Part shown: piece by piece, positions 2 through 14,372 of the stretch
How the letters are laid out: each line of letters begins with the position of its first letter
Position numbering within the stretch: position 1 is the stretch's first letter
From: an uncultured Pelagibacteraceae bacterium
Lineage (GTDB): Bacteria > Pseudomonadota > Alphaproteobacteria > Pelagibacterales > Pelagibacteraceae
DNA length: 64,000 nucleotides
Direction of reading: 5' to 3'
Assembly: GCA_902576785.1 (NCBI GenBank)
Contig: CACGWC010000002.1
Location: forward strand, 62,001-126,000
Made by a program: the position numbers and the translations under genes
The notes under the pieces: model-generated
Databases searched by the model: none
Seen by the model: only the letters and a program-made list of their open reading frames with translations
Told to the model about the DNA's origin: nothing

Positions 2-961
2 AAATTTAGTATGCGTATTAAAGATAGAGTTATCTCAGATATGCCAAGACTTATTTGGTTATTAAAAATTGTTGCTCCTATTTTCAATAAAGTTAAAAAC
101 CTACCTCTAATTTCTACAATTGTTGAAAAGTTTGGTTTTGCAACAGCAAGGTCTATGCCTGAAGTTCAAAACCAGAATGCATTACGAGAGATTTATGACA
201 GTCAGACAGTATCAGAAAATAAAGTAATTTTGTTTGCAGATACTTTTAATATTAACTTTGAAAATGAAAATTTAGTTTATGCAATTAAAGTACTAAATAA
301 ATTTGGTTATCAGGCAATTATACCAAGTTTTGGTAAAGATAAATTAAAGAGACCCCTATGTTGTGGCAGAACTTATATATCTTACGGTCAATTAGACAAA
401 GCCTCTGAGGAACTAAATAGATTTAATGATTACGTTATCCAAAATAATTATATTGATTTACCAGTTGTAGGTATCGAACCATCTTGTTTATTAACTTTTA
501 ACGATGAATATCAGACTTTAAAAAATGTGAATAATAGAGAACAAATTAAAAATAAATTTTATCTGCTTGAGGAATTTATTTTAGAACAAATAAGAAATAA
601 TAATAACATTAAAGCTAATAAGTTCGATCAAAATGTATTAATCCATGGTCACTGTCATCAAAAATCACAAGATAGAATGAAGGGTCTAACTAGTCTTTTA
701 TCAGAATTAAATATTAATAATAAAATGATAGAATCTAGTTGTTGTGGAATGGCTGGTTCATTTGGATATGACAGTAAGACTTATGAAGTCTCTAAAAAAA
801 TGGCTAATCTTTCTTTAATACCTACAATCAATAATAGTGGTGAAAAAGATTTTATTGTTGCAAATGGTACAAGCTGTAGACATCAAATATCTGATTTATC
901 TGAGAAAAAAGGTAAACATGTGTCAGAGTTATTATTTAAAATTTTTGAAACAGTTAATTAA
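2..961 (+). CDS. FAD/Fe-S oxidoreductase, C-terminal part (partial, runs off window start)
   Basis: The frame is open to the left edge of the window, so the Met at base 11 is probably internal and this is the C-terminal third of a longer protein. Two cysteine-rich CCG-type motifs are visible: CCGRTY (codons starting near base 359) and SSCCGMAGSFGYD (near base 736), plus the HGHCHQK segment. These are typical of the heterodisulfide-reductase-like domain that ends large FAD-linked 2-hydroxyacid dehydrogenases (YdiJ type) and of GlcF. Family knowledge suggests oxidation of a 2-hydroxyacid with electrons passed through Fe-S centres. Its stop overlaps the convergent nitrilase gene by 4 bases. Substrate is not determinable from this part. 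Confidence 0.8.
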   Translation, partial: KFSMRIKDRVISDMPRLIWLLKIVAPIFNKVKNLPLISTIVEKFGFATARSMPEVQNQNALREIYDSQTVSENKVILFADTFNINFENENLVYAIKVLNKFGYQAIIPSFGKDKLKRPLCCGRTYISYGQLDKASEELNRFNDYVIQNNYIDLPVVGIEPSCLLTFNDEYQTLKNVNNREQIKNKFYLLEEFILEQIRNNNNIKANKFDQNVLIHGHCHQKSQDRMKGLTSLLSELNINNKMIESSCCGMAGSFGYDSKTYEVSKKMANLSLIPTINNSGEKDFIVANGTSCRHQISDLSEKKGKHVSELLFKIFETVN

Positions 962-1743
962 ACTAAACTAGGTATAATTTTTCTTAAATCCATAGAAAGC
1001 TTAGGGTTAATTTTTGAATAAATTACGCCCTTCCCTAATTTTTTTAATGCTAATATTTTTCCGTCTGGTGAAATAATTGCTGTATGACCAAATGTTTCTC
1101 TTTTAGGGGTATTTTTACCAGTTTGAGCTGGTGCAAAAATATAACAGAAATTTTCAATCGCCCTTGCTCTTAAAAGTGTTAACCAATGTTTTTGTCCCGT
1201 AAACTTTGTGAAAGCTGATGGAACAGCTATAAAACTTAAATTTTTTTTTGATAAATTCCTATAAAGTTCAGGAAATCTCAGATCAAAACAGATTGTAAAA
1301 CCTATTTTGCCCCAAGGTAAATTAGCCGTGACTAATTTATTTCCTGCTTTAAAAGTTTTACTTTCTTTATGTTGTTCTTTATTTGGAATTTTAACATCAA
1401 ACATATTAATTTTATCATAATATTTGACAATTTTTCCATTTGGTCCGACCAATATAGATCTATTTCTGAGTTTGTTTTTAACCTTAACGCAAATTGATCC
1501 GAGTAAAATCCATTTCTTATATTTTTTTGAAACTTCTCTAATTTTCATCAAAATTGGATCTTTATTCATTTCAAATGAATATTTAAAAAGTGTTTCTCTA
1601 CTACTAGACATCAAAGAAGAAGTTTCAGGTGTGATTATTAGATCAGATTTATTTTTTATAGCTTGATTTACGTATTTAATGATATCTTTAAAATTATTTT
1701 GATAATTTTCTCCACTAGATAATTGTATGCAAGCTATTTTCAT
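958..1743 (-). CDS. Carbon-nitrogen hydrolase (nitrilase family, Nit-like)
   Basis: A 261-residue protein covering the whole nitrilase fold. The Glu-Lys-Cys catalytic triad is visible: E40 in TPETSS, K111 in YYDKINMFD and C152 in FTICFDLRFPEL. The DLRFPELYR context and the RARAIEN motif are typical of the Nit1/Nit2 branch (deaminated glutathione or omega-amidase type), which clean up amide-containing metabolites in the cytoplasm. The start overlaps the stop of the upstream permease gene by 4 bases, so it is the last gene of the amino acid ABC operon. This placement hints at deamidation of an imported nitrogen compound, but substrate assignment is inference. Confidence 0.85.
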   Translation of the reverse strand: MKIACIQLSSGENYQNNFKDIIKYVNQAIKNKSDLIITPETSSLMSSSRETLFKYSFEMNKDPILMKIREVSKKYKKWILLGSICVKVKNKLRNRSILVGPNGKIVKYYDKINMFDVKIPNKEQHKESKTFKAGNKLVTANLPWGKIGFTICFDLRFPELYRNLSKKNLSFIAVPSAFTKFTGQKHWLTLLRARAIENFCYIFAPAQTGKNTPKRETFGHTAIISPDGKILALKKLGKGVIYSKINPKLSMDLRKIIPSLV

Positions 1744-2417
1744 GTTTGAAATCCATATTTTTTTTCTAAATATTTAATTACATTATGAATTATAAAAGTC
1801 ATAAACAAGTAAATACCTCCTGCCACAATAAATACCTCAACAGGCTTAAATGTTGTTGAAATTATATATTTAGCAACACCAGTTAAGTCCATAAGTGTGA
1901 CTGTACTTGCCAAGGATGTACCTTTAAGCATTAAAATAATTTCATTACCATAAGCTGGTAAAGATTGTTTAATTGCAATAGGAATTTGTATTTTTGTAAA
2001 AATAATCTTGGAAGGAATACCTAAGCTTCTTCCAGCTTCTAAATATCCAGGCTTTATAGTTTGAAATGCTGATCTCAAAATTTCTGATGTATAAGCACCA
2101 GTATTTAATGAAAATGCAATTATCGCGCACCAATATGGTTCTTTTAAAACTACCCACAAAAAGGTTGTTCTTAAATATTCAATTTGACCTAATCCAAAAT
2201 ATATTATGAAGATTTGAACCAATAAAGGTGTTCCTCTAAAAATATATGAATACCCGTAAGCAAATTTGTTAATCAACTTATTATTATTCATTCTCAAGAT
2301 TGCAAAACCTAATCCAATAAAAAGACCAAGAATTAAAGATACAGATAGCAGTTTAAGAGTAATCAAAGTTGCATTCAGCAACTTAGGAAAACTATTAATC
2401 ATTAATTCAATATCCAT
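1740..2417 (-). CDS. Polar amino acid ABC transporter permease (HisM/ArtM type)
   Basis: A 225-residue inner-membrane protein with several hydrophobic segments and the EAA-loop signature around GYLEAGRSLGIP that contacts the ATPase. The FRGTPLLVQIFI segment is the hallmark of His/Glu/Gln-type (PAAT) permeases. It directly follows the sister permease, sharing one base at the stop/start junction, and is preceded in the operon by a periplasmic binding protein. Together they would form a heterodimeric channel for basic or polar amino acids. The exact substrate cannot be read from the permease. Confidence 0.92.
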   Translation of the reverse strand: MDIELMINSFPKLLNATLITLKLLSVSLILGLFIGLGFAILRMNNNKLINKFAYGYSYIFRGTPLLVQIFIIYFGLGQIEYLRTTFLWVVLKEPYWCAIIAFSLNTGAYTSEILRSAFQTIKPGYLEAGRSLGIPSKIIFTKIQIPIAIKQSLPAYGNEIILMLKGTSLASTVTLMDLTGVAKYIISTTFKPVEVFIVAGGIYLFMTFIIHNVIKYLEKKYGFQT

Positions 2418-3109
2418 TAATAACCTTTGCTATATTTTGTTTCTAATCTATTTAATAATTGCATACTTAAAAATGTAAGCATTAAGTATAAAACTGCTGC
2501 AAATGAGTAAAAAAATAATGGATCTCTAGTTGAACCAGCTGCAATATAGGATTGTCTCATTATTTCAACTAAACCCGTTACAGATATAAGAGAAGTATCT
2601 TTTAATGTAATTTGCCAAACATTGCTTAAATTAGGAATTGCTAATCTTAGCATTTGAGGCAAAATAATTTTAAAGAAGTAAATATATTTTTTAAAACCTA
2701 AAACTTTTGCAGCTTCAAATTGACCTTTATCAATTGATTGTAGTGCTCCTCTAAATACTTCGGTTGAATATGCTCCCGATATAATCCCTATTGAGAATGA
2801 TCCAGTTAAAAAAGCATTAATTTCAATATAATCATTATAACCAAATATAGAAGCAACAAACATAATTGCTCCACTTCCACCAAAGAAAAATAAATAAATT
2901 ACAAGAAGCTCTGGTACACCTCTAATAACTGTGGTGTATGCATTGCCAATTGAGTTTAGAATTTTGTTATTAGATAACTTTAATGGAGTAAATAAAGCAG
3001 CAAATATAAAGCCAATTATCATTGCGGTTATTGAGACCGCAATTGTCATTAAGGTTGCAAAGAATAACTCGTCTCCCCAACCTTTATCACCAAAATATAG
3101 AAGTTCCAT
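2417..3109 (-). CDS. Polar amino acid ABC transporter permease (HisQ/ArtQ type)
   Basis: A 230-residue inner-membrane permease. TVIRGVPELLVIYLFFFGG near residues 60-78 and the EAA loop GQFEAAKVLGFKKY are diagnostic of the HisQ-like half of PAAT importers. It lies just downstream of the binding-protein gene, separated by a short GC-rich hairpin, and is followed with a one-base overlap by the second permease. No ATP-binding subunit is encoded in the operon, so the transporter must borrow an ATPase made elsewhere in the genome. Confidence 0.92.
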   Translation of the reverse strand: MELLYFGDKGWGDELFFATLMTIAVSITAMIIGFIFAALFTPLKLSNNKILNSIGNAYTTVIRGVPELLVIYLFFFGGSGAIMFVASIFGYNDYIEINAFLTGSFSIGIISGAYSTEVFRGALQSIDKGQFEAAKVLGFKKYIYFFKIILPQMLRLAIPNLSNVWQITLKDTSLISVTGLVEIMRQSYIAAGSTRDPLFFYSFAAVLYLMLTFLSMQLLNRLETKYSKGY

Positions 3110-3115
3110 AATATA

Positions 3116-3135
3116 GGTGGCTAACTATAGCCACC
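3116..3135 (-). terminator. Intercistronic hairpin after the binding-protein gene
   Basis: A perfect 8-bp stem (GGTGGCTA / TAGCCACC) with a 4-base loop sits between the binding-protein stop and the first permease start. There is no T-tract, so it is more likely an attenuator or 3'-end mRNA stabiliser that leaves binding-protein transcripts more abundant than permease transcripts than a full terminator. Function is inferred. Confidence 0.55.
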
Positions 3136-3148
3136 CATAAATAATTTA

Positions 3149-3976
3149 TTACATAGAAGCGTCAAAACCAAAATGTTTTATAGCAAGCTTACTGATAATG
3201 CCATCATCTCTAGCTTTATCAATTGCTGCATTAAAATCATTTAAAAGTTTAGAGTCACCTTTTCTAATACCGACGCCAACACCATTACCAAAATCTCCAC
3301 CTGCAAATGTTGGTCCAGTTAATACTACTCCTTTACCAGATTTTTCTGCATAATCTGTAAAAGCAACTGCTGCAGCTAGTGCTGCATCTATTCTACCAGC
3401 AGATAAATCTAAGTTTACTTCATCTTGAGTTTTGTAAGTTCTAATTTTTACATTACCCATTAAACCAGACTCTAAGAAGTTCTGGTGAATTGTTGCTGTT
3501 TGTACACCAATAGTTTTACCTTTAAATGCTTTGGTCAAAACATCTAGTGTTGCTTGTTCATCAGCACTTACGTCAGATAAATTTATAGCTGACATTGTTT
3601 TAAGACCTTCGTTTTTTGATCCTTTCATAACAGCTAATGATGCAACTTCATCAGCATAACCTTGAGAAAAGTTAATTGTTTTCATTCTCTCACCAGTTAT
3701 TGACATTCCAGCCATGATGGCATCAAATTTTCTTGAGACCAAAGCTGGTATCATTCCATCCCAGTCTTGCTCCACAATTGTGCAATCATGATTCATAATT
3801 TTACATAATTCATTTGCTAATTCGACTTCAAAGCCAATCAAATTTCCTGCTGAGTCTTTAGAATTCCAAGGTGGATATGCACCTTCGGTTCCTATTTTAA
3901 TTTGATCTGCAATTGAAGAAATTGTTAGAAATGATGATATTAAAATACCAAGTCCTAATACTTTTAATTTTTTCAT
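3149..3976 (-). CDS. Periplasmic polar amino acid-binding protein (HisJ/ArgT-like)
   Basis: A 275-residue solute-binding protein with an N-terminal signal peptide (KK then a hydrophobic stretch ending SSIADQ). The mature N-terminus IKIGTEGAYPPWN, GFEVELANELC and DWDGMIPAL are family-3 substrate-binding signatures of Lys/Arg/Orn/His or octopine/nopaline-type receptors. The ribosome-binding site GGAGG is visible just upstream of the ATG. It is the first gene of an operon with two permeases and a nitrilase-like hydrolase. It would capture a positively charged or polar amino acid in the periplasm. Confidence 0.92.
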   Translation of the reverse strand: MKKLKVLGLGILISSFLTISSIADQIKIGTEGAYPPWNSKDSAGNLIGFEVELANELCKIMNHDCTIVEQDWDGMIPALVSRKFDAIMAGMSITGERMKTINFSQGYADEVASLAVMKGSKNEGLKTMSAINLSDVSADEQATLDVLTKAFKGKTIGVQTATIHQNFLESGLMGNVKIRTYKTQDEVNLDLSAGRIDAALAAAVAFTDYAEKSGKGVVLTGPTFAGGDFGNGVGVGIRKGDSKLLNDFNAAIDKARDDGIISKLAIKHFGFDASM

Positions 3977-4035
3977 TTTTTTCCTCCAAAAATTTTGAAG
4001 ATTATTTCATAAAATTATTGTTTTAAAAAGAAAAA

Positions 4036-5076
4036 TTAATGATTTATTGACGAGGAAAAATTCCAAGAACAATCGAAACTTGGTATATAAACTCTTGAAA
4101 GTTTTGTATTTCCAAAATTTTTGTTAAAAACATTTAACCAATTTTCAACTTGTTTTGGTTTTTTGTCTTGGCTTCCTACTTGAGCGGTAATTACACCTTT
4201 AGGTTTTAAAATTCTTTCTAAAGATGACATATTTTTTGCAGCCAAATCTATACAAAATTGATCATCATTTAGATCAACAAATATTTGATCATAAGTATTG
4301 TCTTTGACAGATTTAATACTTTCAAAAGCATCTCCCCAAACGCATTTAACTGAATTCTTTTCGGTAGCTTTCTCGCCAATTTTGCTTAAATGTTTATCAC
4401 ATACATCAACAACCTCAGGATCTAATTCATACCAATCTATAAAGCCAAAGTTTTGTGAAATGCATTCTCTTGCAACACCGCCGTCACCTCCACCAATAAT
4501 TGCAGCTTTTTCTTTGTTTGAATTTAAATTAAGACCTGAATTTACAAAGGTTGAGCTATATAAATGTTCATCACTTTCAGCTACTTGTATTTCATTATCA
4601 ATAAATAAAGCTTTTCCAAATTGTTCTAAATCAAGTATTTCAATATATTGACCTACTTTAGATTTAAAATTTTCTAAAACTCTATTAACAACATATGATT
4701 TTTTTAAACCTGGAGAACTATAATTGTCATGATAAAGATCAATAGTATCTCTATTAAATTCTTTAATTATGATATTTGTATGATCTATCTCGTCTTTTAT
4801 TATATCTAGAGACACTTTTGGTGATACTTTCCCACATGTAAAAAAATCAAAGCTTACAATTTCTTTTTCTGGGAAAGTATGAAAACTAATGTGACTTTCA
4901 GCGAGCAAAGCAACCAATGTAAATCCTTGTGGCTCGAATTTATATTTAGAAATTTTTAAAACTGTTACTTTTGCTGCTTTAGCAATTTTATAAACTAACT
5001 TTTCATAAAATTCAGGAGTATATTCCTTTTTAGTTCCAACTATATCCAGCGTTATATGTTCCCCAACTTTTTCCAT
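4036..5076 (-). CDS. speDE: Fused S-adenosylmethionine decarboxylase / spermidine synthase
   Basis: A 346-residue fusion. Residues 1 to about 115 are a prokaryotic AdoMet decarboxylase with the self-cleavage site AE|SHISFHTFPE (E60/S61; Ser61 would become the pyruvoyl group). Residues about 125-346 are an aminopropyltransferase with the AdoMet-binding GGGDGGVARE loop, the ELDPEVVDVC acidic motif and YDQIFVDLND at the catalytic Asp. It would make decarboxylated AdoMet and use it to turn a diamine into a triamine, releasing MTA. SpeD-SpeE fusions are known from several bacteria including Ca. Pelagibacter. The MTA salvage genes follow immediately. Confidence 0.93.
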   Translation of the reverse strand: MEKVGEHITLDIVGTKKEYTPEFYEKLVYKIAKAAKVTVLKISKYKFEPQGFTLVALLAESHISFHTFPEKEIVSFDFFTCGKVSPKVSLDIIKDEIDHTNIIIKEFNRDTIDLYHDNYSSPGLKKSYVVNRVLENFKSKVGQYIEILDLEQFGKALFIDNEIQVAESDEHLYSSTFVNSGLNLNSNKEKAAIIGGGDGGVARECISQNFGFIDWYELDPEVVDVCDKHLSKIGEKATEKNSVKCVWGDAFESIKSVKDNTYDQIFVDLNDDQFCIDLAAKNMSSLERILKPKGVITAQVGSQDKKPKQVENWLNVFNKNFGNTKLSRVYIPSFDCSWNFSSSINH

Positions 5077-5165
5077 AAGAATTTAATATATATCTTTTTT
5101 AACTAACGAAATTTTTTACTTCTTTCAAACAAAAAACTATTATAATAATTTATCGAGGATAAACA

Positions 5166-7199
5166 TTGAAAAACAATTGGTCAAAAAACGAAGCTAAAAA
5201 ATATATTAAAAAATATAAGAAATTAGGTCATTCTGAAGATATGGCTTTAAGGGTTTATACAACCAGGCTTCTAGGAAGAAATCCAGAATTGGTGTTACAT
5301 GGTGGTGGCAATACTTCAGTCAAGACAAAAATCAAAGATATAGATGGTAAATATTATGATGTTCTTTGTGTAAAAGGCAGCGGATGGGATATGGCTGAAA
5401 TTGAACCAGCGGGTTTGCCAGCTGTTAAATTAAATCCATTGCTTGCTATGAAAAAAAAGAAAACGCTGTCTGATGATGACATGGTTGCTTTTCAAAAAAA
5501 AAATTTGATAGATACAAAATCGCCCAATCCATCAGTTGAAACTTTTTTACATGCATTTTTACCATTTAAATTTGTTGATCACACTCATTCTGATGCAATT
5601 ATGAAAATCACTAATAGACCAAATGGAGAAATGCTATCAAAAAAAATATTTGGTAAAAAAACTGCAATAGTTCCTTATGTAATGCCTGGATTTAAATTAG
5701 CACAAAAAATAAATGAAGTTTATTCAAAAAATCCAAATATCAATTGTTTAATTTTATTAAACCACGGTATTTTCACATTTGCCGATAATGCAAAAGATGC
5801 TTACAGTTTAATGATAAAGTATATATCTGATGCTGAAAAAACTTTAACTAAATTTAAAAAGAAAAAAATAAAACAAATAAAGAAAACTAAATTTAATTTC
5901 TCAATTACAGATGTAGCTCCTATATTAAGAGGTCTTTTATCTGAGAAAAATGATGACAAATTTATCTTAAATTTTAAAAAAAATAGTAAGTTAGATTATT
6001 TTATTAATGGTAAAGATATAAATAGATACTCAAATGAAGGAACAGCTACTCCTGATCATGTTATAAGAGTTAAACCATTTCCTTTAGTAATATCACCAAA
6101 AGCAAACTGTACTTTAGATGAATTTAAAAATTTAGCTGAAAAAAAATTCAAAGAATATAGGCAAAAATATAAAAAATATTTTGAAACTAATAAGAAAAAA
6201 ACTAAAGAAAAAAAAGTAATGCTTGATACATCTCCTAGAGTAATTCTAGTTCAGAATTTTGGTTTATTTACAGTAGGAGATACCTTAAAAGCTGCAAAAA
6301 TTGCAGGAGATTTGACTCAAACTAATGCCAATGTAATTTCAAGTGTTGAAGAAACGTCCAGATATAAATTTTTATCGAAAAAAGACTTATTTGATGTTGA
6401 GTATTGGTCCTTGGAACAAGCAAAATTAAATAAAACAAAAAAAGAATTGCAAGGCAACGTTGTTGTTATCACCGGCAGTACTGGAGAAATTGGTAAAGCA
6501 ACCTATAAATTATTTAAAAAATACGGAGCAGAAGTTGTTTTACTTGATATTAATAAAAGTAAGATAAATGATTTACAGACGAAAATAAGTGATCTTTGTA
6601 TTCACTGTGATGTAACCAATAAACAAAGTGTAAAAAAAGCATTTAATAAAGTTTTGGAGATATACGGGGGTTTAGATATTTTAATATCTAATGCTGGTAC
6701 TGCTATAGGTGGATCAATTGCAGAAGTTAATGATGAAATACTTCGAAAAAGTTTTGAAGATAATTTTTTCTCACACCAAAATTGTGCTTCAGAGGCTGTA
6801 AAAATTATGAAAAAACAAAATATAAATGGGTGTTTGTTATTTAATATATCTAAGCAATCAGTTAATCCTGGTAAAAATTTTGGACCATATGGATTGCCTA
6901 AGTCTGCGCTTTTAAATTTGTGTAAACAATATGCAGTTGATTATGGACACCTTGGTATTAGATCAAATGGTGTTAATGCTGATAGAATTAGAAGTGGTTT
7001 ATTAAATGATAAAATGATTAAACAAAGAGCAAAGGCAAGAGAAGTAACCACGGATCAATATATGAGTGGTAATCTACTGTTAAGCGAAGTTAAAGCAGAT
7101 GATGTGGCCAAAGCTTTTTATCATCTTGCGATATCAAAAAAATCAACTGGAGCAGTATTAACCGTGGACGGTGGAAATATTGCAGCTTCTTTAAGATAA
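5166..7199 (+). CDS. Bifunctional class II aldolase / short-chain dehydrogenase
   Basis: A 677-residue two-domain enzyme starting at TTG. The N-terminal class II aldolase domain (about residues 20-410) carries LVLHGGGNTSVK, the zinc ligands in DHTHSDAI and NHGIFTF, and a sugar-phosphate-like pocket. The C-terminal short-chain dehydrogenase (about 430-677) has the nucleotide motif TGSTGEIGKA, SNAGTAIGG and the catalytic Ser / YGLPK (YxxxK) set. The layout matches 'rhamnulose-1-phosphate aldolase/alcohol dehydrogenase' proteins. No rhamnose genes are nearby. It sits tail-to-tail with mtnA (no bases between stops), so methylthioribulose-1-phosphate is an attractive substrate: DHAP plus methylthioacetaldehyde, the latter handled by the dehydrogenase. 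Fold is certain; substrate is inference. Confidence 0.9.
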   Translation: MKNNWSKNEAKKYIKKYKKLGHSEDMALRVYTTRLLGRNPELVLHGGGNTSVKTKIKDIDGKYYDVLCVKGSGWDMAEIEPAGLPAVKLNPLLAMKKKKTLSDDDMVAFQKKNLIDTKSPNPSVETFLHAFLPFKFVDHTHSDAIMKITNRPNGEMLSKKIFGKKTAIVPYVMPGFKLAQKINEVYSKNPNINCLILLNHGIFTFADNAKDAYSLMIKYISDAEKTLTKFKKKKIKQIKKTKFNFSITDVAPILRGLLSEKNDDKFILNFKKNSKLDYFINGKDINRYSNEGTATPDHVIRVKPFPLVISPKANCTLDEFKNLAEKKFKEYRQKYKKYFETNKKKTKEKKVMLDTSPRVILVQNFGLFTVGDTLKAAKIAGDLTQTNANVISSVEETSRYKFLSKKDLFDVEYWSLEQAKLNKTKKELQGNVVVITGSTGEIGKATYKLFKKYGAEVVLLDINKSKINDLQTKISDLCIHCDVTNKQSVKKAFNKVLEIYGGLDILISNAGTAIGGSIAEVNDEILRKSFEDNFFSHQNCASEAVKIMKKQNINGCLLFNISKQSVNPGKNFGPYGLPKSALLNLCKQYAVDYGHLGIRSNGVNADRIRSGLLNDKMIKQRAKAREVTTDQYMSGNLLLSEVKADDVAKAFYHLAISKKSTGAVLTVDGGNIAASLR

Positions 7200-8276
7200 T
7201 TAATTAAATAACTTTTTTAATCCTTCAGAAGAAGCATCACAAACTCCCTTTTCTGTTATTAATGCAGTAACATATTTAGCAGGTGTTACATCAAACGCTA
7301 AATTTAATGATTTGCTTTTTTCGGGATATATTAAAACTTTATCCACTTTATTATCTTTGTTAATTCCATCCACATGAGAAAGTTCTTTTGGATCTCTTTC
7401 TTCTATAGGAATATCTTTTGAGTTTTTTAAATTCCAATCTATAGTTGAACTTGGTAAAGCAACATAAAAAGGTACCTTATTATCATGAGCTGCAAGAGCT
7501 TTTAAATATGTACCGATTTTATTGCACACATCTCCGTTAGATAATGTCCTATCTGTTCCAACAATACACATATCGACCTGTCCTCTTTGCATTAATATTC
7601 CACCTGTATTATCTGCTATAATTGTATTTGGAATTTCTTCTTCATTAAGTTCATATGATGTAAGGTTTGCCCCTTGATTTCTTGGTCTAGTTTCATCAAC
7701 CCAAACATGTATTGGTATTCCTTTTTTATGTGCATGATAAATAGGAGAAGTTGCTGTTCCCCAATCTATTGTAGCTAACCAACCTGCATTACAATGTGTG
7801 AGAATATTTACGGTATCTTTCTTTTTATTATATATATCTTCAATAATATTTAATCCATTTTTACCAATACTTTCACAAAATCCCTCATCTTCTTTACAAA
7901 TTTCTTTAGCTTCATTGAGTGCAACATTAAATAAATCTCCAGGCTCAACAAATGACAACTTGTTATTCATTCTATGAACTGCCCACTGAAGATTTATAGC
8001 CGTAGGCCTAGAAGCAACTAATTCTTCCGAACTTTTTTTTATAAAATCTAAACTATTATTTTCTTTTACAGCTAGAACTAATCCAAATGCAGCTGTGCCT
8101 CCGATTAATGGAGCACCTCGAACTTCCATTGTTTTGATAGCATTTATGGCGTCTTTAACTGAATTTAATTCTTTTATTATAAATTTATGTGGAAGCTTTG
8201 TCTGATCTATAATTTTTACAACTTGTTTTTCTTCATCGAACCAAATTGTTTTATATTTAACACCATTAATTTTCAT
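7200..8276 (-). CDS. mtnA: S-methyl-5-thioribose-1-phosphate isomerase
   Basis: A 358-residue protein of the eIF2B-like/MtnA family. VRGAPLIGGTAAFG near the N-terminus, the ILTHCNAGWLAT motif with its catalytic Cys, VDETRPRNQGANLT and the GTDRTLSNGDVCNKIGTY stretch (catalytic Asp) match MtnA. It converts methylthioribose-1-phosphate to methylthioribulose-1-phosphate in the cytoplasm. Its start overlaps the mtnP stop by one base (TAATG), so the two are translated together. The downstream steps of the classical salvage (mtnBCD etc.) are absent from the window; the adjacent aldolase fusion may replace them. Confidence 0.95.
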   Translation of the reverse strand: MKINGVKYKTIWFDEEKQVVKIIDQTKLPHKFIIKELNSVKDAINAIKTMEVRGAPLIGGTAAFGLVLAVKENNSLDFIKKSSEELVASRPTAINLQWAVHRMNNKLSFVEPGDLFNVALNEAKEICKEDEGFCESIGKNGLNIIEDIYNKKKDTVNILTHCNAGWLATIDWGTATSPIYHAHKKGIPIHVWVDETRPRNQGANLTSYELNEEEIPNTIIADNTGGILMQRGQVDMCIVGTDRTLSNGDVCNKIGTYLKALAAHDNKVPFYVALPSSTIDWNLKNSKDIPIEERDPKELSHVDGINKDNKVDKVLIYPEKSKSLNLAFDVTPAKYVTALITEKGVCDASSEGLKKLFN

Positions 8277-9145
8277 TAAGTAAGAACTCTTCCTGCAATT
8301 GTTTTTAATTTATCTTTAGTTTTTTGAGTTCTTTTTTCTGGAGCCGTTATTATTGCTACATCTAAACAATTATTAGTTGGATCATTGGGATTAATGTGAT
8401 TTTCAAAGTTCTCTATCAAATTTTTAATCATATTTTTAGCTTTTGCTGCATTATCTAAGAGTACTTTTATAACTTGTTGGACATCTACATTCTCATGATC
8501 TGGATGCCAGCAATCATAGTCTGTTACCATTGAAACTGAAGCATACCTAATTTCTGCTTCTCTTGCTAGTTTAGCTTCTGGCATGTTTGTCATTCCAATA
8601 ACATCAGCTTTCCAAGATCTATATAGGTTTGACTCTGCTAATGTAGAAAATTGTGGACCTTCCATTACAATATAAGTTCCTCCTCTTTGATAAGGTATAC
8701 TTTCTTTTTTTATAGCATCTTCGCACGCGTTCATCAGTCCATTTGAAGTTGGATGTGCCATTGATACATGCGCAACAATTTCATCATCAAAAAAAGTTTT
8801 GTTTCTTGCAAAAGTTCTATCAATGAACTGATCAACGATAACAAATTTACCTGGAGGTAAATCTTCTTTTAAAGATCCAACAGCTGAAACAGAGACTATG
8901 TCTGTAATGCCAATTTGTTTAAGTGCATCAATATTTGCTCTAAAATTTATTTTTGATGGAGAAATAAAATGACCTTTTCCATGTCTTGGTAGAAAATAAA
9001 TTTCTTTATTATTGTAGTTTGCCTTTAAAATTAGATCTGAGGGTTTTCCCCATGGTGTATTTAAATCTAAAGTTTCTCTATCTTTAAACTCTTCAACATC
9101 ATATAGGCCACTTCCACCAATAATTGCTAATTTATTATTTGCCAT
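8276..9145 (-). CDS. mtnP: S-methyl-5'-thioadenosine phosphorylase
   Basis: A 289-residue purine-nucleoside-phosphorylase family 2 protein. IIGGSGLYDVEEF, FLPRHGKGHFISPSKIN, VSAVGSLKEDLPPG and IGMTNMPEAKLAREAEI match MTA phosphorylase. It splits MTA, the by-product of spermidine synthesis, with phosphate into adenine and methylthioribose-1-phosphate. The two products feed the neighbours: adenine to Apt (divergent, 28 bases away) and the sugar phosphate to MtnA (overlapping). Confidence 0.95.
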   Translation of the reverse strand: MANNKLAIIGGSGLYDVEEFKDRETLDLNTPWGKPSDLILKANYNNKEIYFLPRHGKGHFISPSKINFRANIDALKQIGITDIVSVSAVGSLKEDLPPGKFVIVDQFIDRTFARNKTFFDDEIVAHVSMAHPTSNGLMNACEDAIKKESIPYQRGGTYIVMEGPQFSTLAESNLYRSWKADVIGMTNMPEAKLAREAEIRYASVSMVTDYDCWHPDHENVDVQQVIKVLLDNAAKAKNMIKNLIENFENHINPNDPTNNCLDVAIITAPEKRTQKTKDKLKTIAGRVLT

Positions 9146-9173
9146 AATACATTTTAGATTATAATTAAGTTTT

Positions 9174-9701
9174 ATGGATTTAAAAGAACATATTAGATCA
9201 ATTCAAGACTATCCTAAAAAGGGAATTCTATTTAGAGACATCACAACTCTCATAAAAAATGAAAAAGCATTTAAAGAATGTATCAACCAAATTGTTGAAA
9301 GATCAAAAAAATTTAATTTTGATAAAATAGCTGCAGTAGAATCTAGAGGTTTCGTATTTGCTTCTGCTATCTCATACATCTTAGATAAGCCATTTATAAT
9401 GCTAAGAAAAAAAAATAAACTACCCGCTGAAGTACATTCTGTTGATTTTGAGCTAGAATATGGAACAGCAACAATTGAAGTTCACAGAGACTCTTTTAAT
9501 GAAAACGATAATGTATTAATTATTGATGACTTAATTGCAACTGGAGGCACTGCTGAAGCTGCGGCTAAACTAATAGAAATATCAAAAAGTAAGGTTGCAG
9601 GATTTATATTTGTAATTAATTTATTTGACCTTGGAGGTACTGATAATCTTCTAAAAAAAGGTTATAAAGTGGAAAATCTTTTAGACTTTCCAGGTCATTG
9701 A
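9174..9701 (+). CDS. apt: Adenine phosphoribosyltransferase
   Basis: A 175-residue type I phosphoribosyltransferase. DYPKKGILFRDIT, the AAVESRGFVFA segment and the PRPP-binding loop VLIIDDLIATGGTAEA are typical. It recycles adenine from MtnP into AMP. The TGA stop is followed without any gap by a 37-base copy of the 3' half of tRNA-Met, which suggests that apt and the tRNA gene were convergent neighbours before an insertion separated them. Confidence 0.96.
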   Translation: MDLKEHIRSIQDYPKKGILFRDITTLIKNEKAFKECINQIVERSKKFNFDKIAAVESRGFVFASAISYILDKPFIMLRKKNKLPAEVHSVDFELEYGTATIEVHRDSFNENDNVLIIDDLIATGGTAEAAAKLIEISKSKVAGFIFVINLFDLGGTDNLLKKGYKVENLLDFPGH

Positions 9702-9738
9702 TGGTAGCGGGAAGTGGGATCGAACCACTGACCTCGGG
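9702..9738 (-). repeat. Displaced 3'-half copy of tRNA-Met (att-like direct repeat)
   Basis: 37 bases are identical to the 3' end of the intact tRNA-Met gene at 10390-10466, from the CCA end through the T arm and variable loop to the 3' strand of the anticodon stem; weaker similarity continues to about 9744. The copies are direct repeats 688 bases apart. This is what site-specific integration into a tRNA gene leaves behind: the original 3' end displaced to the distal junction and a full tRNA rebuilt on the other side. No function as a tRNA is possible. Confidence 0.9.
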
Positions 9739-10389
9739 ATCATGTTTTGTGATATTATATTTTTTTCAATATTGATTATCTCCAAAAATAAGAAATAGTA
9801 AAATTACCCAATAATAAAGTTATATGTGTAACAGGAATTTTTCAATTTTAGTGTTTTTAAATTTCTGTTAAAGTTTCATATGAAAATAAATATCGGCGGC
9901 TTAACAAAAAAAGATGGTTGGAAAAACTTTAACGCACAAAAGAAACCTGATGTTGATATTGTTGGAAATATAGAGGATCTAAGTCAATTTGAGGATGAAA
10001 GCATAGAAGAAATTTATGCTAGTCATATAATTGAACATATTGATCAAAAAAAAATTCATAATACATTAAAAGGTATTTACAGAATTTTAAAGAAAGATGG
10101 AAAGTTTTATGTTTCCGTGCCAGATATGGATGTTCTTTGTCATTTTTTTGTATCTCCAATCGCAAATAAAAAAATAAAATTCCATACCATGCGAATGATT
10201 TTTGGTGGACAGGTTGATAATTATGATTATCACTATTTTGGATGGAACTATGAGTTTATGTATGATTATCTCAGTGCGGCGGGTTTTTCAAAAATTAATA
10301 AAGTTGGTTCATTTGGTTTGTTTAATGATACTAGTGAATTCAAACCTTATGGTTTTCCTATAAGTTTAAATGTAATAGCAATTAAATAA
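9739..10389. mobile_element. Putative tRNA-flanked islet (single-cargo insertion)
   Basis: The stretch between the 3'-half tRNA copy and the intact tRNA-Met. It holds about 140 AT-rich non-coding bases followed by one methyltransferase-like gene whose stop touches the tRNA 3' end. No integrase or transposase is present, so it would be a remnant or a passively mobilised cargo islet. Evidence for mobility is structural only (direct repeats at a tRNA 3' end). Confidence 0.6.
9880..10389 (+). CDS. Predicted SAM-dependent methyltransferase-like protein (islet cargo)
   Basis: A 169-residue protein resembling the short class I methyltransferases often found with cell-surface sugar genes. INIGG...DGWKNFN, DIVGNIEDLSQF and IYASHIIEHI...GIYRILKKDGKFYVSVPD follow the order of the family's motifs, although the glycine-rich AdoMet loop is shortened (IGGL rather than GxGxG), so activity is uncertain. 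It is the only gene of the tRNA-flanked islet, ends exactly at the tRNA 3' end, and has no metabolic link to apt. Surface-polysaccharide modification is a reasonable but unproven guess. Confidence 0.75.
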   Translation: MKINIGGLTKKDGWKNFNAQKKPDVDIVGNIEDLSQFEDESIEEIYASHIIEHIDQKKIHNTLKGIYRILKKDGKFYVSVPDMDVLCHFFVSPIANKKIKFHTMRMIFGGQVDNYDYHYFGWNYEFMYDYLSAAGFSKINKVGSFGLFNDTSEFKPYGFPISLNVIAIK

Positions 10390-10466
10390 TGGTAGCGGGA
10401 AGTGGGATCGAACCACTGACCTCGGGCTTATGAGTCCCGCGCTCTAACCAACTGAGCTACCCCGCC
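10390..10466 (-). tRNA. tRNA-Met (anticodon CAT)
   Basis: A 77-nt tRNA with encoded CCA. Reading the minus strand: 7-bp acceptor stem beginning GGCGGGG, D arm GCTC...GAGC, anticodon loop CTCATAA and T loop TTCGATC. The regular acceptor pairing and D arm suggest an elongator tRNA-Met, or a CAT tRNA to be modified for Ile. The first pair under the anticodon loop is A-G (31-39), an unusual mismatch. The 3' half is duplicated at 9702-9738. Confidence 0.96.
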
Positions 10467-10517
10467 GTAAATAATTTTTGGTTTATACTACTTTTATTTT
10501 TTGTTGCAAACAAGATT

Positions 10518-10631
10518 TCACTTACTCTTTTTCTTATCTTTTTTAATTTTTCTTTTTTCCTTTAAAGAAAGTTTGGCTTTTTTCATTACACTAGAGTCTT
10601 TAAATGATTTTCCACTATACCTTTTTGACAT
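10518..10631 (-). CDS. Small lysine-rich basic protein (37 aa)
   Basis: An ATG at 10631-10629 opens a 37-codon frame ending in TGA. The product begins MSKRYSGKSFKDS and ends in a long run of Lys/Arg with a few Ile, Asp and Glu (…KEKRKIKKDKKKSK), giving a strongly positive charge. There is no membrane segment or cysteine. It fills the gap between tRNA-Met and the AEC transporter gene. Such short basic proteins may bind nucleic acid or ribosomes; function is unknown. Coding status rests on composition and the gap it fills. Confidence 0.55.
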   Translation of the reverse strand: MSKRYSGKSFKDSSVMKKAKLSLKEKRKIKKDKKKSK

Positions 10632-10635
10632 TGTA

Positions 10636-11559
10636 TTAACTTAAAAAATTTATAGTGAGTAAAAAGGTAAATATTGAGGCAAATGTCGAAATAAATATTG
10701 CCTTAATGATGTTTTCTGGGCTTACATTGTACGCAGAGCACATAACAATTGAGGTGGCACCACAAGGACCAACGCTAACTAATAATGCTCCTGCAAAATT
10801 AAGTGGATTTGACAAATTGAAAAATGTGTAGCCTAAAATTAACAATATCAAAGGAGATATAATCAACTTTAATAATGAAATTGTAATGGTTAATTTGTTA
10901 AAAACTTTTTGTGAGTAAAAAGATAGAATAATTCCAATTGCAAACAAACCAACAGGCATAACACATGCCGCCAATCTTTGTAGAATATATTCAAATGGGG
11001 TTTCGTCTATATTGATCTTTGAAATTCTTATTATTAATCCGATTAATATTGCTAATATCATGGGATTTAATATTAAATTTCTTAAAAACTGAAATAATTT
11101 AATCCTTTTTTTTACAGTAAGCTCTAAAAAGAAACTAACTATGGACAATAAAACTACACTATCCATTAAAATAATACCCGATATTTGAGTTATAGTACTT
11201 CCTGCAAAGAAAATTTCTGCAATAGGCAGAACTAATATTACGTGATTGGATAAAGCAACTGTTAGAGCCCATATAATAGACTCCTGTATTGATCTTTTAA
11301 AAGTATTTTTGGTTAACAAAAAAGCAAATATTCCGCTTGTTAACTGCATTAAAAAATATGATGAAATTTGAGATACGTCTATTTCGCCAACGTCACTTTG
11401 CGCAACTAGTTTTATGATTAAAGCTGGTACCGCGATATAAAATGAAAATAAATTAAATATTCTAGCCTTCTGTAAATCGAATATTTTAATATGACCTAAA
11501 AGATAACCAATAAGAGTAATACCTATAAATGGTGTTAACCCTAAAAAAACCTGGAACAT
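10636..11559 (-). CDS. AEC family transporter (auxin efflux carrier-like)
   Basis: A 307-residue inner-membrane protein with about ten hydrophobic segments. The N-terminal GITLIGYLLG..., the inverted-repeat architecture and the GPCGATSIVMCSAYNV motif near residue 265 are characteristic of AEC (malate permease/auxin efflux) carriers, which move small organic anions. Its start overlaps the stop of the TauD-like gene by one base, so it is translationally coupled to a dioxygenase and an alpha/beta hydrolase. It probably carries the substrate or product of those enzymes. Confidence 0.85.
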   Translation of the reverse strand: MFQVFLGLTPFIGITLIGYLLGHIKIFDLQKARIFNLFSFYIAVPALIIKLVAQSDVGEIDVSQISSYFLMQLTSGIFAFLLTKNTFKRSIQESIIWALTVALSNHVILVLPIAEIFFAGSTITQISGIILMDSVVLLSIVSFFLELTVKKRIKLFQFLRNLILNPMILAILIGLIIRISKINIDETPFEYILQRLAACVMPVGLFAIGIILSFYSQKVFNKLTITISLLKLIISPLILLILGYTFFNLSNPLNFAGALLVSVGPCGATSIVMCSAYNVSPENIIKAIFISTFASIFTFLLTINFLS

Positions 11560-12347
11560 TATTGGACAGTAATTCTATGCATAATTCTATTACCCTTAAA
11601 AGCCGTTGCTTGATGAAGCATAGATCTATTATCCCAAATAGCTAATTGGTTCTTTTCCCATTCTAAAGAGTATTGAAAACTTTTTTTTAATTGGTGTTTA
11701 AATAAATACTTTTTTAATTTTTTATCAATTTTACTGTTATTGAAACGAATAAAGTGTCCTGGACTACAATATAAAGTATATTTACTATTTATTTTTCTTA
11801 TTAAATTATGCTTTGAAATTAGTTCTTTAGCTTTTTTCCCTTTTTCTTTCTCTCTTTCCAATCTTGTTACAGAAATAGGTCCTTCTGATGAAAATATACA
11901 TTTTTCGTTTTTAAACTTTCTTTTGAAGCTAGCTGGTAATTTTTCATAAGCCAAATATTGAGAACAGAAATCTGTATTTGCCTGACCTTTCTTTGGAACT
12001 AATTTAGATAACAACATTGTAAATCTAGGTGGCTTTTTAGTATAAATTGAGTCTGTGTGAAATTGCTCGCCAAAACTAGGGCCTTTGTCAGTTGATTTTC
12101 TTTGAACAACAGTTATTTGAGGATATTTTTTATTCAATCCTTTAAGTCTTGGATAGTTTGCTAGTTTTCCAAATTTTTTTGCAAATTTTACATAATGATT
12201 AGAGCTTAATTTTTGGTTTCTAAAATAAATCATTCCATATTTCGATAAGGCAGATTTAATTTTTTTTAGTGAAGAATTATTAATTTTATTTAAATCGCAG
12301 ACTAATTCTGCGCCTATATTTTTTTTGTTAGGAATAATTTTAAGCAT
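11559..12347 (-). CDS. TauD/TfdA family 2-oxoglutarate-dependent dioxygenase
   Basis: A 262-residue protein with the full facial triad of the family: H97 and D99 in EQFHTDS, distal H245 in SMLHQAT, and R258 in MHRITV for 2-oxoglutarate. WDNRSMLH is a TauD hallmark. It would hydroxylate a small substrate with O2 and 2-oxoglutarate, often releasing sulfite or an aldehyde/ketone. The start overlaps the upstream hydrolase by 8 bases and its stop overlaps the AEC transporter start. Taurine is unlikely to be assignable from sequence alone. Confidence 0.88.
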   Translation of the reverse strand: MLKIIPNKKNIGAELVCDLNKINNSSLKKIKSALSKYGMIYFRNQKLSSNHYVKFAKKFGKLANYPRLKGLNKKYPQITVVQRKSTDKGPSFGEQFHTDSIYTKKPPRFTMLLSKLVPKKGQANTDFCSQYLAYEKLPASFKRKFKNEKCIFSSEGPISVTRLEREKEKGKKAKELISKHNLIRKINSKYTLYCSPGHFIRFNNSKIDKKLKKYLFKHQLKKSFQYSLEWEKNQLAIWDNRSMLHQATAFKGNRIMHRITVQ

Positions 12348-13215
12348 TTTTTAAAAAGAAACTTTTTAATTGTTTAATTGTTTCTTTGGGATTTTGCTCT
12401 GGTATAAAATGTCCAGATTTAACAGCAACTCCAACAACTTTTTTATTTGAATATTTTTGCCAAATTTTAATCGGTTTAAATTGTTTGCCTATAACACCAT
12501 TTTTTCCCCATAATACTTGAACTGGAATATTTAATTTTTTCTTTCTATCATGTCTGTCATGATCAAGATCAATTGTAGCAGATGCTCTATAATCTTCACA
12601 TGATCCATGTATTCTCTTTGGTTGTTTAAAGCACTTTATGTAACCCTCTTCAACTTTTCCAAATTTATGATTGCCTGACCATTTATCCAAGCAATACTTC
12701 ATCCATTTTCTTGGATCACTCATTATCATTCTTTCAGGTAGCCATTTTGGTTGAATTAAGAAAAACCAATGGAAGTAAGCTTTTGCAAAATCTCTAGTTG
12801 TTAGTTCGTACATATCTAAAGTTGGACAAATATCTAAAACGCTGAGAGCAAGCACGTTTTTTCTGTGATCTCTTGCCAATCTATGAGCAACTCTTCCACC
12901 CCTATCATGGCCTGCAACAAAAAACTTGGCATACCCCAATTTTACCATCATTTGTTTCATGTCACTCGCCATTTCTCTTTTAGAATAATTAAAATGTTTA
13001 CTGTCAGATGGTGGAGCTAAACTATTTCCATAACCTCTTAGGTCTGCTGCAACAACTGTAAAAATTTTAGATAACTCTGGAGCTGTTTTATGCCACATTA
13101 AATGCGTTTGAGGGTAACCATGGAGCAATAATAAAGGAGGACCATCTCCTTTAACTTTACAAAAGACTTTACCTTTTTTTACTTTTACGTATTTACTCTT
13201 AAAACCTTCAAACAT
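12340..13215 (-). CDS. Alpha/beta hydrolase resembling fluoroacetate dehalogenase
   Basis: A 291-residue alpha/beta hydrolase. The nucleophile elbow is GHDRGGR (D104), with acid D128 in VLDICP and base H269 in SGHFIPEQNP. Beyond the triad, the residues that bind carboxylate and halide in haloacetate dehalogenases appear present: R105 and R108 in the elbow, H149-W150 in FHWFF and Y209 in CEDYRAS. This pattern is specific to the fluoroacetate/haloacetate dehalogenase branch. First gene of a coupled operon with a TauD-like dioxygenase and an AEC transporter. Dehalogenation versus another ester/epoxide hydrolysis needs assay. Confidence 0.85.
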   Translation of the reverse strand: MFEGFKSKYVKVKKGKVFCKVKGDGPPLLLLHGYPQTHLMWHKTAPELSKIFTVVAADLRGYGNSLAPPSDSKHFNYSKREMASDMKQMMVKLGYAKFFVAGHDRGGRVAHRLARDHRKNVLALSVLDICPTLDMYELTTRDFAKAYFHWFFLIQPKWLPERMIMSDPRKWMKYCLDKWSGNHKFGKVEEGYIKCFKQPKRIHGSCEDYRASATIDLDHDRHDRKKKLNIPVQVLWGKNGVIGKQFKPIKIWQKYSNKKVVGVAVKSGHFIPEQNPKETIKQLKSFFLKNA

Positions 13216-13337
13216 TAATTTATCTTAATTTATATTTTTATAATTCAATAAATAATTTTAAAATTGTTCAAATACAACGTTAATAAGCTTAATTATTAAA
13301 TTGAATTATCATTCATTGGATGTATATCTTCATTTTT

Positions 13338-14372
13338 GTGAGAATTGAAGAAGAACTAAAACTAGATTATTCCGACGTACTTTTTAGACCTAAGAGAAGC
13401 ACTCTTAAAAGTAGAAAAGATGTTAATTTAAAAAGAACTTATCGTTTTAAATACAGTAAAAACGAATGGTCTGGAATCCCTATAATGGCAGCTAATATGG
13501 ATGGTGTAGGTGTACTTGGTGTTGCCGAAAAATTATCTGAATATGGAATGATTACATGTTTAACAAAACAACATGATGTAAAAAAAATTAAACAATTTAA
13601 AAAAATAAAATCAATATATCCAAATGTTGCTTTAAGTATTGGAACAAAAAAAGAAGATTTTCAAAATTTAGATAAAGTTTTAAAAGAATTTAGTTTTATA
13701 AAATTCATCTGTATAGATGTTGCAAATGGTTACTCTGAACATTTTAGTAAATTTTTAAAATCTGTTAGAGATAAATACCCAACAAAAACAATTATTGCAG
13801 GTAATGTTGTTACTGCAGATATGACTCAAGAATTAATTTTATCAGGAGCAGATATTGTTAAAGTTGGAATTGGACCAGGGAGTGTGTGTACAACAAGAAT
13901 ACAAACTGGGGTTGGCTATCCTCAGTTAAGTGCGGTAATAGAATGTGCTGATGCAGCGCATGGATTAGGTGCACATATCATTGCAGATGGTGGATGCACT
14001 TGTCCAGGTGATGTTGCTAAAGCATTTGGTGGAGGAGCTGATTTTGTCATGCTTGGAGGAATGTTTGCAGGTCATGATGAAGGTAAAGGAAAATTAGTAA
14101 AATCTAATGGCTCAAAGTATGTTGAATTTTACGGATCAAGTTCTGAAACTGCAAATAACAAACATTATGGTGGACTATCAGACTACAGAAGTAGCGAAGG
14201 CAGAACAGTAAGAGTTAAGTACCGTGGTAAAATTAATGATACCATTTTAAATATTTTAGGTGGTGTTAGAAGCAGTTGTACATATGTTGGAGCACCTTCA
14301 CTTAAACAATTAAGTAAGTGCACAACTTTTGTAAGAGTTACTAAGCAATTTAACGATACATTCACTAAATAA
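13338..14372 (+). CDS. guaC: GMP reductase
   Basis: An IMPDH/GMPR-family TIM barrel. The GTG at 13338 is chosen as start because the product then begins (M)[13 protein letters not shown], matching GuaC N-termini; an upstream ATG at 13320 would add six unlikely residues. [30 protein letters not shown] (catalytic Cys) and [15 protein letters not shown] are visible. There is no CBS insert, arguing for GMP reductase rather than IMP dehydrogenase. It converts GMP to IMP with NADPH, balancing purine pools. It is separated from the next gene by no bases. Confidence 0.93.

Follow-up and report, generated by a model that had tools for sequence, protein, structure and literature searches.

The window analysed here is a stretch of 64,000 nucleotides from an uncultured Pelagibacteraceae bacterium of the Pelagibacterales, or SAR11 (GenBank assembly GCA_902576785.1, contig CACGWC010000002.1, positions 62,001 to 126,000), and our subject is a gene at 5166-7199 (plus strand, TTG start) that encodes a class II aldolase fused to a short-chain dehydrogenase/reductase (SDR) in a protein of 677 residues. 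The gene lies within a run of five consecutive genes at 4036-9701. On one side is speDE (4036-5076, minus strand), which encodes an S-adenosylmethionine decarboxylase fused to a spermidine (polyamine) synthase (Pfam AdoMet_dc at residues 7-109 and Spermine_synth at 170-340). On the other side are mtnA (7200-8276, minus strand), encoding methylthioribose-1-phosphate isomerase (412.8 bits on TIGR00512, cut-off 279); mtnP (8276-9145, minus strand), encoding 5'-methylthioadenosine (MTA) phosphorylase (308 bits on TIGR01694, cut-off 274.85; 443.2 bits on NF006492, cut-off 437); and apt (9174-9701, plus strand), encoding adenine phosphoribosyltransferase (199.7 bits on TIGR01090, cut-off 185.85). 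The Pfam and NCBIfam assignments were concordant for each of the five. An earlier sequence-only reading of the window had described these genes as consecutive and the fusion as tail-to-tail with mtnA, and all positions and strands agreed with that description. As the fusion runs towards mtnA and away from speDE, with which it stands head-to-head, co-transcription with them is not expected and a simple operon was rejected; at two loci of the f2 family (L043 and L044) the fusion is co-directional with mtnA. A search of the whole window for regulatory RNAs at the gathering threshold found none, a single tRNA being the sole match. The host genome comprises 1.196 Mb in 26 contigs, with a completeness of 85.9%.

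The fusion is a member of NF006192 (PRK08324.1-6; 901.7 bits over residues 1-677, cut-off 639), a model named 'bifunctional aldolase/short-chain dehydrogenase' that gives no substrate. Its aldolase domain (residues 31-217, 5256-5816, plus strand; Pfam Aldolase_II) contains the motif GGGNTSVK together with E125, H139, H141 and H200, which we take from FucA to be the metal ligands and the catalytic acid, and these four residues were present in the window protein and in all 53 NF006192-type rows compared. The SDR domain (residues 442-670, 6489-7175, plus strand; Pfam adh_short_C2) has the glycine-rich motif TGSTGEIG and residues S562, Y575 and K579, matching the classical SDR pattern (TGxxGxIG, S...YxxxK); we assume that these three residues and N533 have their usual SDR roles. 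The individual catalytic and metal positions vary little or not at all across the 53 related proteins, and within the glycine-rich motif G437 and G443 were found in 53 of 53 rows and G440 in 64%. The SDR domain also carries D461, which we read as marking a preference for nicotinamide adenine dinucleotide, NAD(H), and which suggests that this is the cofactor used. Between the two domains lies a middle region of about 200 residues (5859-6449) that has no Pfam match. In a profile comparison this region weakly matched the last part of the aldolase domain over 33 columns (probability 40, single-comparison E 0.0003), a hint that it may be a degenerate second aldolase half. In a structure model of the whole fusion both domains matched known folds: the aldolase part resembled 3m4r, a Thermoplasma N-terminal class II aldolase domain (Z 21.8, root-mean-square deviation 2.8 A, 195 residues aligned), and the SDR part resembled many SDR structures (Z 18.7-20). 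With a mean predicted local distance difference test score (pLDDT) of 67.5 the model is too poor to show whether a tunnel connects the two active sites; modelled by itself, the middle region reached a pLDDT of 59.9.

The two-domain architecture is shared with RhaEW, an L-rhamnulose-1-phosphate aldolase/L-lactaldehyde dehydrogenase (TIGR02632, NF006189), in which a class II aldolase that forms dihydroxyacetone phosphate (DHAP) is coupled to an NAD+-dependent SDR that removes the aldehyde by oxidizing it, the aldolase activity being dependent on the SDR (PMC3870299). The fusion did not reach the rhamnulose model TIGR02632, scoring 443.2 bits against a cut-off of 567.75. A tree of 72 fusions, made up of 61 NF006192-type proteins (including all eight SAR11 fusions supplied) and 11 that fall below the NF006192 cut-off, had two sides split at 100% support in the Shimodaira-Hasegawa-like approximate likelihood ratio test (SH-aLRT), by a quick method and with long branches flagged; the fragmentary L218-L221 entered neither the tree nor the position comparison. 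The two low-scoring proteins of the 11 that were scored directly, those of L222 and L225, both pass TIGR02632 with more than 1000 bits (L222, 1011.5). Rhamnose isomerase was a neighbor at two of three low-scoring loci tested, L222 and L232 (671 and 630 bits on TIGR02629, cut-off 647), and no match to it was found among the neighbors of L225. The window fusion has a median identity of about 31% to 10 rhamnose-side fusions, and at the 54 positions that distinguish the sides it has the residue of the NF006192 or mtn side at 47 and that of the rhamnose side at 2. Side-specific positions were enriched in the SDR loop 563-578 (8 of 10 positions versus 46 of 173, p 0.001, in a post hoc test made with the list already viewed). 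The N533 position is leucine in 90% of the 10 rhamnose-side rows, and D461 is conserved on both sides of the tree. In the conservation comparison L223 and L228 were set apart from the rhamnose side; in their genomes (G339 and G431) this fusion is a second, divergent one below the NF006192 cut-off, on a branch of its own next to the other low-scoring rows, and each genome also has an mtnA-linked fusion. The sequence-only reading had warned that the usual annotation, rhamnulose-1-phosphate aldolase, would be wrong. Such a name is very probably wrong, but neither the NF006192 nor the TIGR02632 model would give it.

The neighboring genes point to a different pathway, the DHAP shunt, in which MtnP and MtnA turn MTA into 5-methylthioribulose-1-phosphate and Ald2 splits the latter to DHAP and methylthioacetaldehyde (PMC5893883, PMC10986504, PMC12632272). 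The shunts of R. rubrum, R. palustris and E. coli ATCC 25922 resemble the present locus in using MtnP (or a nucleosidase plus a kinase), MtnA and a class II aldolase without need of MtnB, MtnC or MtnD, and the same components were found here: the MTA phosphorylase is present, MtnA is encoded in 17 of 17 SAR11 genomes with the fusion and the class II aldolase residues are in place. Ald2, however, is a separate class II aldolase-like protein that works with a separate putative alcohol dehydrogenase (PMC5893883), whereas in the window both parts are in one polypeptide, and at 677 residues the fusion falls in NF006192, an aldolase subfamily other than that of the stand-alone Ald2-type enzymes. Another comparable enzyme is DrdA, the 5-deoxyribulose-1-phosphate aldolase of Bacillus thuringiensis, also a class II aldolase in a kinase-isomerase-aldolase scheme acting on 5-deoxypentoses; it differs in using a kinase route rather than MtnP, and the available part of its description mentions no fused dehydrogenase (PMC6079011).

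We consider it very probable, from gene content and context, that the fusion acts as the last enzyme in a DHAP shunt for MTA, probably also for 5'-deoxyadenosine. It would most likely be a two-domain 5-methylthioribulose-1-phosphate (and 5-deoxyribulose-1-phosphate) aldolase/aldehyde dehydrogenase and thus a new variant of the shunt. In such a scheme SpeDE, the MTA source at the locus, would make MTA, and MtnP would phosphorolyze it, giving adenine for recapture by Apt and methylthioribose-1-phosphate for isomerization by MtnA to 5-methylthioribulose-1-phosphate. The aldolase domain would then cleave this compound to DHAP, which would enter central metabolism, and methylthioacetaldehyde, a reactive aldehyde that the SDR domain of the same polypeptide would immediately convert; most likely it would be oxidized with NAD+ to methylthioacetate (acetate in the case of 5'-deoxyadenosine), less likely reduced to 2-methylthioethanol. 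We infer the substrate, the redox direction, channelling and the fate of the sulfur. Of the 'self-contained loop' of the sequence-only reading, only adenine, through Apt, and carbon, through DHAP, are accounted for; the evidence does not extend to a return of the methylthio group to methionine.

The distribution of the fusion within SAR11 was followed in an order sample of 147 genomes, 80 of which have a match to mtnA (TIGR00512), 77 of them over the cut-off. A full-length fusion, the only kind counted, was found in 17 genomes, all with mtnA and all assembled in 20 or more contigs, and a stand-alone class II aldolase in 61, again all with mtnA. The stand-alone aldolase was defined as an open frame of 205-235 amino acids, a criterion fixed after the table had been viewed, which excluded Aldolase_II matches in frames of 237-264 amino acids (many of these in f2 genomes without mtnA) and two truncated matches of 175 amino acids (G036 and G016). 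No genome has both the fusion and a stand-alone aldolase, and one or the other is present in 78 of the 80 mtnA genomes (Fisher 3.5e-40). The fusion lies within 300 bp of mtnA in 13 of its 17 genomes, and the stand-alone aldolase does so in 54 of 61. Named contigs gave a similar picture. Among the best 80 of at least 574 confirmed candidates, examined with flanks of up to 8 kb, all were titled Pelagibacteraceae or Pelagibacter; speDE was within 300 bp of the fusion in 78, mtnA was in the flank in 68 (within 300 bp in 48) and no stand-alone aldolase was found in the flanks. With speDE in 78 and mtnA in 68 of these contigs, the arrangement goes far beyond what chance would give.

No universal or isoprenoid route of MTA salvage is visible in the order sample, since none of the 147 genomes, that of the host included, has an over-cut-off match to MtnD (PF03079; one sub-threshold match, in G007) or any match to a RuBisCO-like protein (PF00016), in a search that did not include MtnC or MtnE. 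The same models matched in control genomes, MtnD in 5 of 14 (over the cut-off in 2) and the RuBisCO-like protein in 5 of 14. Within the host genome, at its 85.9% completeness, the fusion is the sole Aldolase_II match, leaving no candidate for MtnB. The sequence-only statement that mtnB, mtnC, mtnD and mtnE are absent at the locus held for MtnB and MtnD in the host genome, and its check for a complete mtnBCD route elsewhere in the genome found neither enzyme, MtnC and MtnE lying outside the search. Universal salvage encoded elsewhere in the genome was rejected on the lack of an over-cut-off MtnD in the order sample and of MtnB in the host, and the MTA-isoprenoid and Bacillus MtnW routes on the lack of a RuBisCO-like protein.

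The linkage extends beyond SAR11. Among 337 genomes of the class, 57 have an NF006192 match over the cut-off, and mtnA was matched in 54 of these 57 versus 107 of the 280 remaining genomes (Fisher 1.6e-16). When up to 18 kb was examined around each of the 56 such fusions outside the window, with about 8 kb of flank, mtnA, mtnP or apt was present in 35 cases (mtnA in 29, mtnP in 23, apt in 14), as against none of the 11 low-scoring fusion loci (Fisher 1e-4). These genes often lie directly upstream of the fusion, in the order mtnP-(apt)-mtnA-fusion. The proposal of the sequence-only reading that the fusion cleaves methylthioribulose-1-phosphate in place of MtnB, MtnC and MtnD is well supported by genomic evidence in that the fusion strictly co-occurs with mtnA in SAR11, it and the Ald2-type aldolase are mutually exclusive at one locus, MtnD and RuBisCO-like proteins are lacking there and NF006192 fusions are repeatedly linked to mtnA and mtnP outside SAR11.

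Several observations weigh against this assignment. Within SAR11 two mtnA genomes, G141 and G144, have neither aldolase, and neither gave a match when searched with the fusion's aldolase part. In G141 mtnA is about 0.2 kb from a contig end, and this genome has an Aldolase_II match (E 5e-15) the place of which was not listed; in G144 mtnA is about 9 kb from a contig end, with neither a fusion nor a stand-alone aldolase in between. As the aldolase is 9 kb from mtnA in G074, where the arrangement is similar, a gap in the assembly is a plausible though unproven explanation. One of the truncated Aldolase_II matches dropped by the length rule is in a genome that has no mtnA match (G036). At the class level mtnA was not matched in 3 of the 57 fusion genomes (G176, G257 and G430), and among the 54 matches those in G244 and G345 are weak or partial. 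Twenty-one of the 56 loci have no mtnA, mtnP or apt in the flank; 11 of these are cut by contig ends, the other 10 having nearly 8 kb on both sides. A homologue on pSymB of Sinorhizobium meliloti (46.9% identical, not scored on NF006192) has a sugar ABC transporter beside it but no gene annotated as mtn. Given the unlinked loci and this homologue, part of the NF006192 subfamily may act on another sugar phosphate. MtnD was over the cut-off in 8 of 58 fusion genomes (the 57 plus one with an interrupted copy, G443), so that the fusion is not in every case a substitute for the universal route. We found no NF006192 member with a measured substrate, and since the sugar of RhaEW differs in stereochemistry at C4, the substrate of the fusion is not readable from homology. 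The known Ald2 pathways reduce the aldehyde, which speaks against oxidation (PMC5893883). Finally, SpeE of SAR11 has been proposed to run backwards as well (PMC8437039), and a reversible SpeE would consume MTA and could be a further MTA sink.

The relation between the fusion and the stand-alone aldolases is most readily seen in a close relative of the host, G120 (locus L035). By blastn, window positions 956-14224 aligned with this locus in four blocks of 92-96% DNA identity, and the blocks end at window positions 5071 and 7216 (L035 7426 and 6773). In place of the interval 5072-7215, which contains the fusion, G120 has 652 bp with the gene of a 214-residue aldolase (L035 6773-7417), co-directional with its mtnA and speDE. 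The borders of the swap are sharp. A second stretch of the window lacking a counterpart in G120, 9745-10388, comprises most of a small methyltransferase gene. Eight of the 61 stand-alone aldolases were typed, by family models only: they scored best, with 195-214 bits, on L-fuculose-phosphate aldolase models whose cut-offs of 264 they did not reach, and gave 60-76 bits on the MtnB model TIGR03328 (cut-off 137). These proteins would therefore be fuculose-aldolase-like or Ald2-like rather than dehydratases, 'Ald2-type' being a designation drawn from their scores, their length and their position. For the flanking genes speDE and mtnP, trees that sampled 10 of the 61 stand-alone genomes and excluded L041 (neither cassette seen), identical sequences and rows covering less than 90% of the query each gave 9 changes of cassette state, of which well-supported branches alone force 7 and 6, respectively; the mtnA tree also gave 9. 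Shuffled labels gave means of 9.7 and 9.6 changes on the speDE and mtnP trees, a comparison to which the 10 stand-alone rows lend little power. The fusion and the stand-alone aldolase seem to have been exchanged repeatedly at one locus, and the fusion and the Ald2-type aldolase seem to be interchangeable cassettes at a single SAR11 site.

The fate of the aldehyde divides the two best readings. In the fuller version of our proposal the fusion is a dedicated two-in-one enzyme for MTA and 5'-deoxyadenosine, widespread in Alphaproteobacteria, that hands methylthioacetaldehyde to its own NAD+-dependent dehydrogenase to give methylthioacetate rather than methylthioethanol, and in SAR11 it is one of two swappable cassettes, recombination having repeatedly switched the fate of the methylthio group. 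Taken with all its parts this version is tentative, coming close to an even chance. The same aldolase reaction could instead be followed by reduction of the aldehyde with NADH to 2-methylthioethanol or ethanol, like the putative separate alcohol dehydrogenases of the known DHAP shunts, a serious competitor that we would also place somewhat below an even chance. SDRs commonly interconvert alcohols and carbonyls, and N533, S562, Y575 and K579 are conserved on the mtn side, the N533 position being the one that is mostly leucine on the rhamnose side; against reduction, D461, conserved on both sides, points to NAD(H). Moreover, 2-(methylthio)ethanol is the product observed in R. palustris and E. 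coli ATCC 25922 (PMC5893883, PMC10986504), but the sister enzyme RhaEW requires NAD+ and yields lactate (PMC3870299). Oxidation is favored because RhaEW couples its aldolase to an NAD+-dependent SDR, and only slightly so because the known DHAP shunts give methylthioethanol.

An unlikely reading, though one with some genomic support, is that the subfamily is a general catabolic aldolase for imported 5-deoxy or 5-substituted pentulose-1-phosphates, its linkage to mtnA reflecting shared sugar chemistry rather than MTA disposal. Plasmids of two Hyphomicrobiales, Pararhizobium qamdonense and Mariluticola halotolerans (L236 7966-20052 and L237 5749-15802), carry a fusion homologue with a sugar-binding regulator, a sugar ABC transporter, mtnK and mtnA, and the transporter beside the pSymB homologue also fits this reading. 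However, among the 35 linked loci of the class sample 23 include mtnP and 14 include apt, and an mtnK-like gene was found at only one of the 68 class-level loci (L209), the search having covered these loci and not those of SAR11. Both plasmid clusters also hold a DXS-like half, to which that of Pararhizobium adds a transketolase half and a RuBisCO-like protein, so that methylthioribose or 5-deoxyribose may be served there by two neighboring routes. Less likely still, the main substrate would be 5-deoxyribulose-1-phosphate derived from 5'-deoxyadenosine, a by-product of radical S-adenosylmethionine enzymes, with MTA minor. SAR11 bacteria live in oxic water and the cassette adjoins the MTA source speDE in 78 of the best 80 named contigs, both of which count against this idea. 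The DHAP shunt does serve both compounds and an MtnP variant has been described (PMC10986504, PMC12632272), but E. coli made little 5'-deoxyadenosine aerobically (PMC10986504). It is highly improbable that we are dealing with a RhaEW-like rhamnulose- or fuculose-1-phosphate aldolase/lactaldehyde dehydrogenase that has mtnA as a chance neighbor, for although the fusion shares the RhaEW architecture and about 31% identity with the rhamnose side and RhaEW occurs in Alphaproteobacteria (PMC3870299), this reading was rejected on the TIGR02632 score, the separate tree side with its 47 versus 2 distinguishing residues, the strict coupling to mtnA and the lack of a match to the rhizobial-type rhamnose isomerase TIGR02629 in 17 of 17 SAR11 fusion genomes (controls matched in 3 of 14, none over the cut-off; other isomerase types and kinases were not searched).

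If the assignment to the DHAP shunt is correct, a substrate could be given to a subfamily now named just for its two domains and the known shunt would extend across Alphaproteobacteria, and the flux into its product (methylthioacetate or methylthioethanol, possibly methanethiol later) would become testable. The cassette swap clearly exemplifies the seemingly interchangeable use of two distantly related enzymes at one locus of a streamlined genome. The speDE gene of the window is of the SpeD-SpeE fusion type known from SAR11 (PMC8437039); what is new is its fixed neighborhood with two aldolase cassettes. Our literature search, which did not cover the 2020 survey of the DHAP shunt (10.1111/mmi.14459), found no description, among the papers listed, of an aldolase-dehydrogenase fusion in MTA metabolism or of the SAR11 locus.

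A hotspot for insertions lies between the aldolase cassette and mtnA, with examples in G088, G121, G074 and G144 (L046 9008-19054, L049 4720-8506, L040 and L041). In G088 the locus is split by an apparent aromatic-acid island encoding a flavin-dependent (FAD) hydroxylase, an extradiol dioxygenase-like protein and a fumarylacetoacetate hydrolase, together with a tripartite ATP-independent periplasmic (TRAP) transporter substrate-binding protein, a BKACE protein and a sulfatase-like hydrolase. G144 has a PhyH-family gene between mtnP and mtnA, and other genomes have enoyl-CoA hydratase, DUF1015/pyridoxal phosphate (PLP)-enzyme or sub-threshold GDSL-like genes nearby. In G443 (L221 8342-12685) the fusion is interrupted and mtnA, beside mtnP, is in two frames, which suggests pathway decay or sequence errors. 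Downstream of apt in the window are a gene for a 169-residue S-adenosylmethionine-dependent methyltransferase-like protein (9880-10389; Methyltransf_11, no NCBIfam match) and a tRNA gene (10393-10466, minus strand). Beside speDE are genes for an amino-acid ABC transporter, made up of two permeases and a binding protein of the lysine/arginine type, and for an amidase of the nitrilase family (958-1743 and 1740-3976 together), and the transporter genes adjoin speDE in most of the same-genus loci compared.

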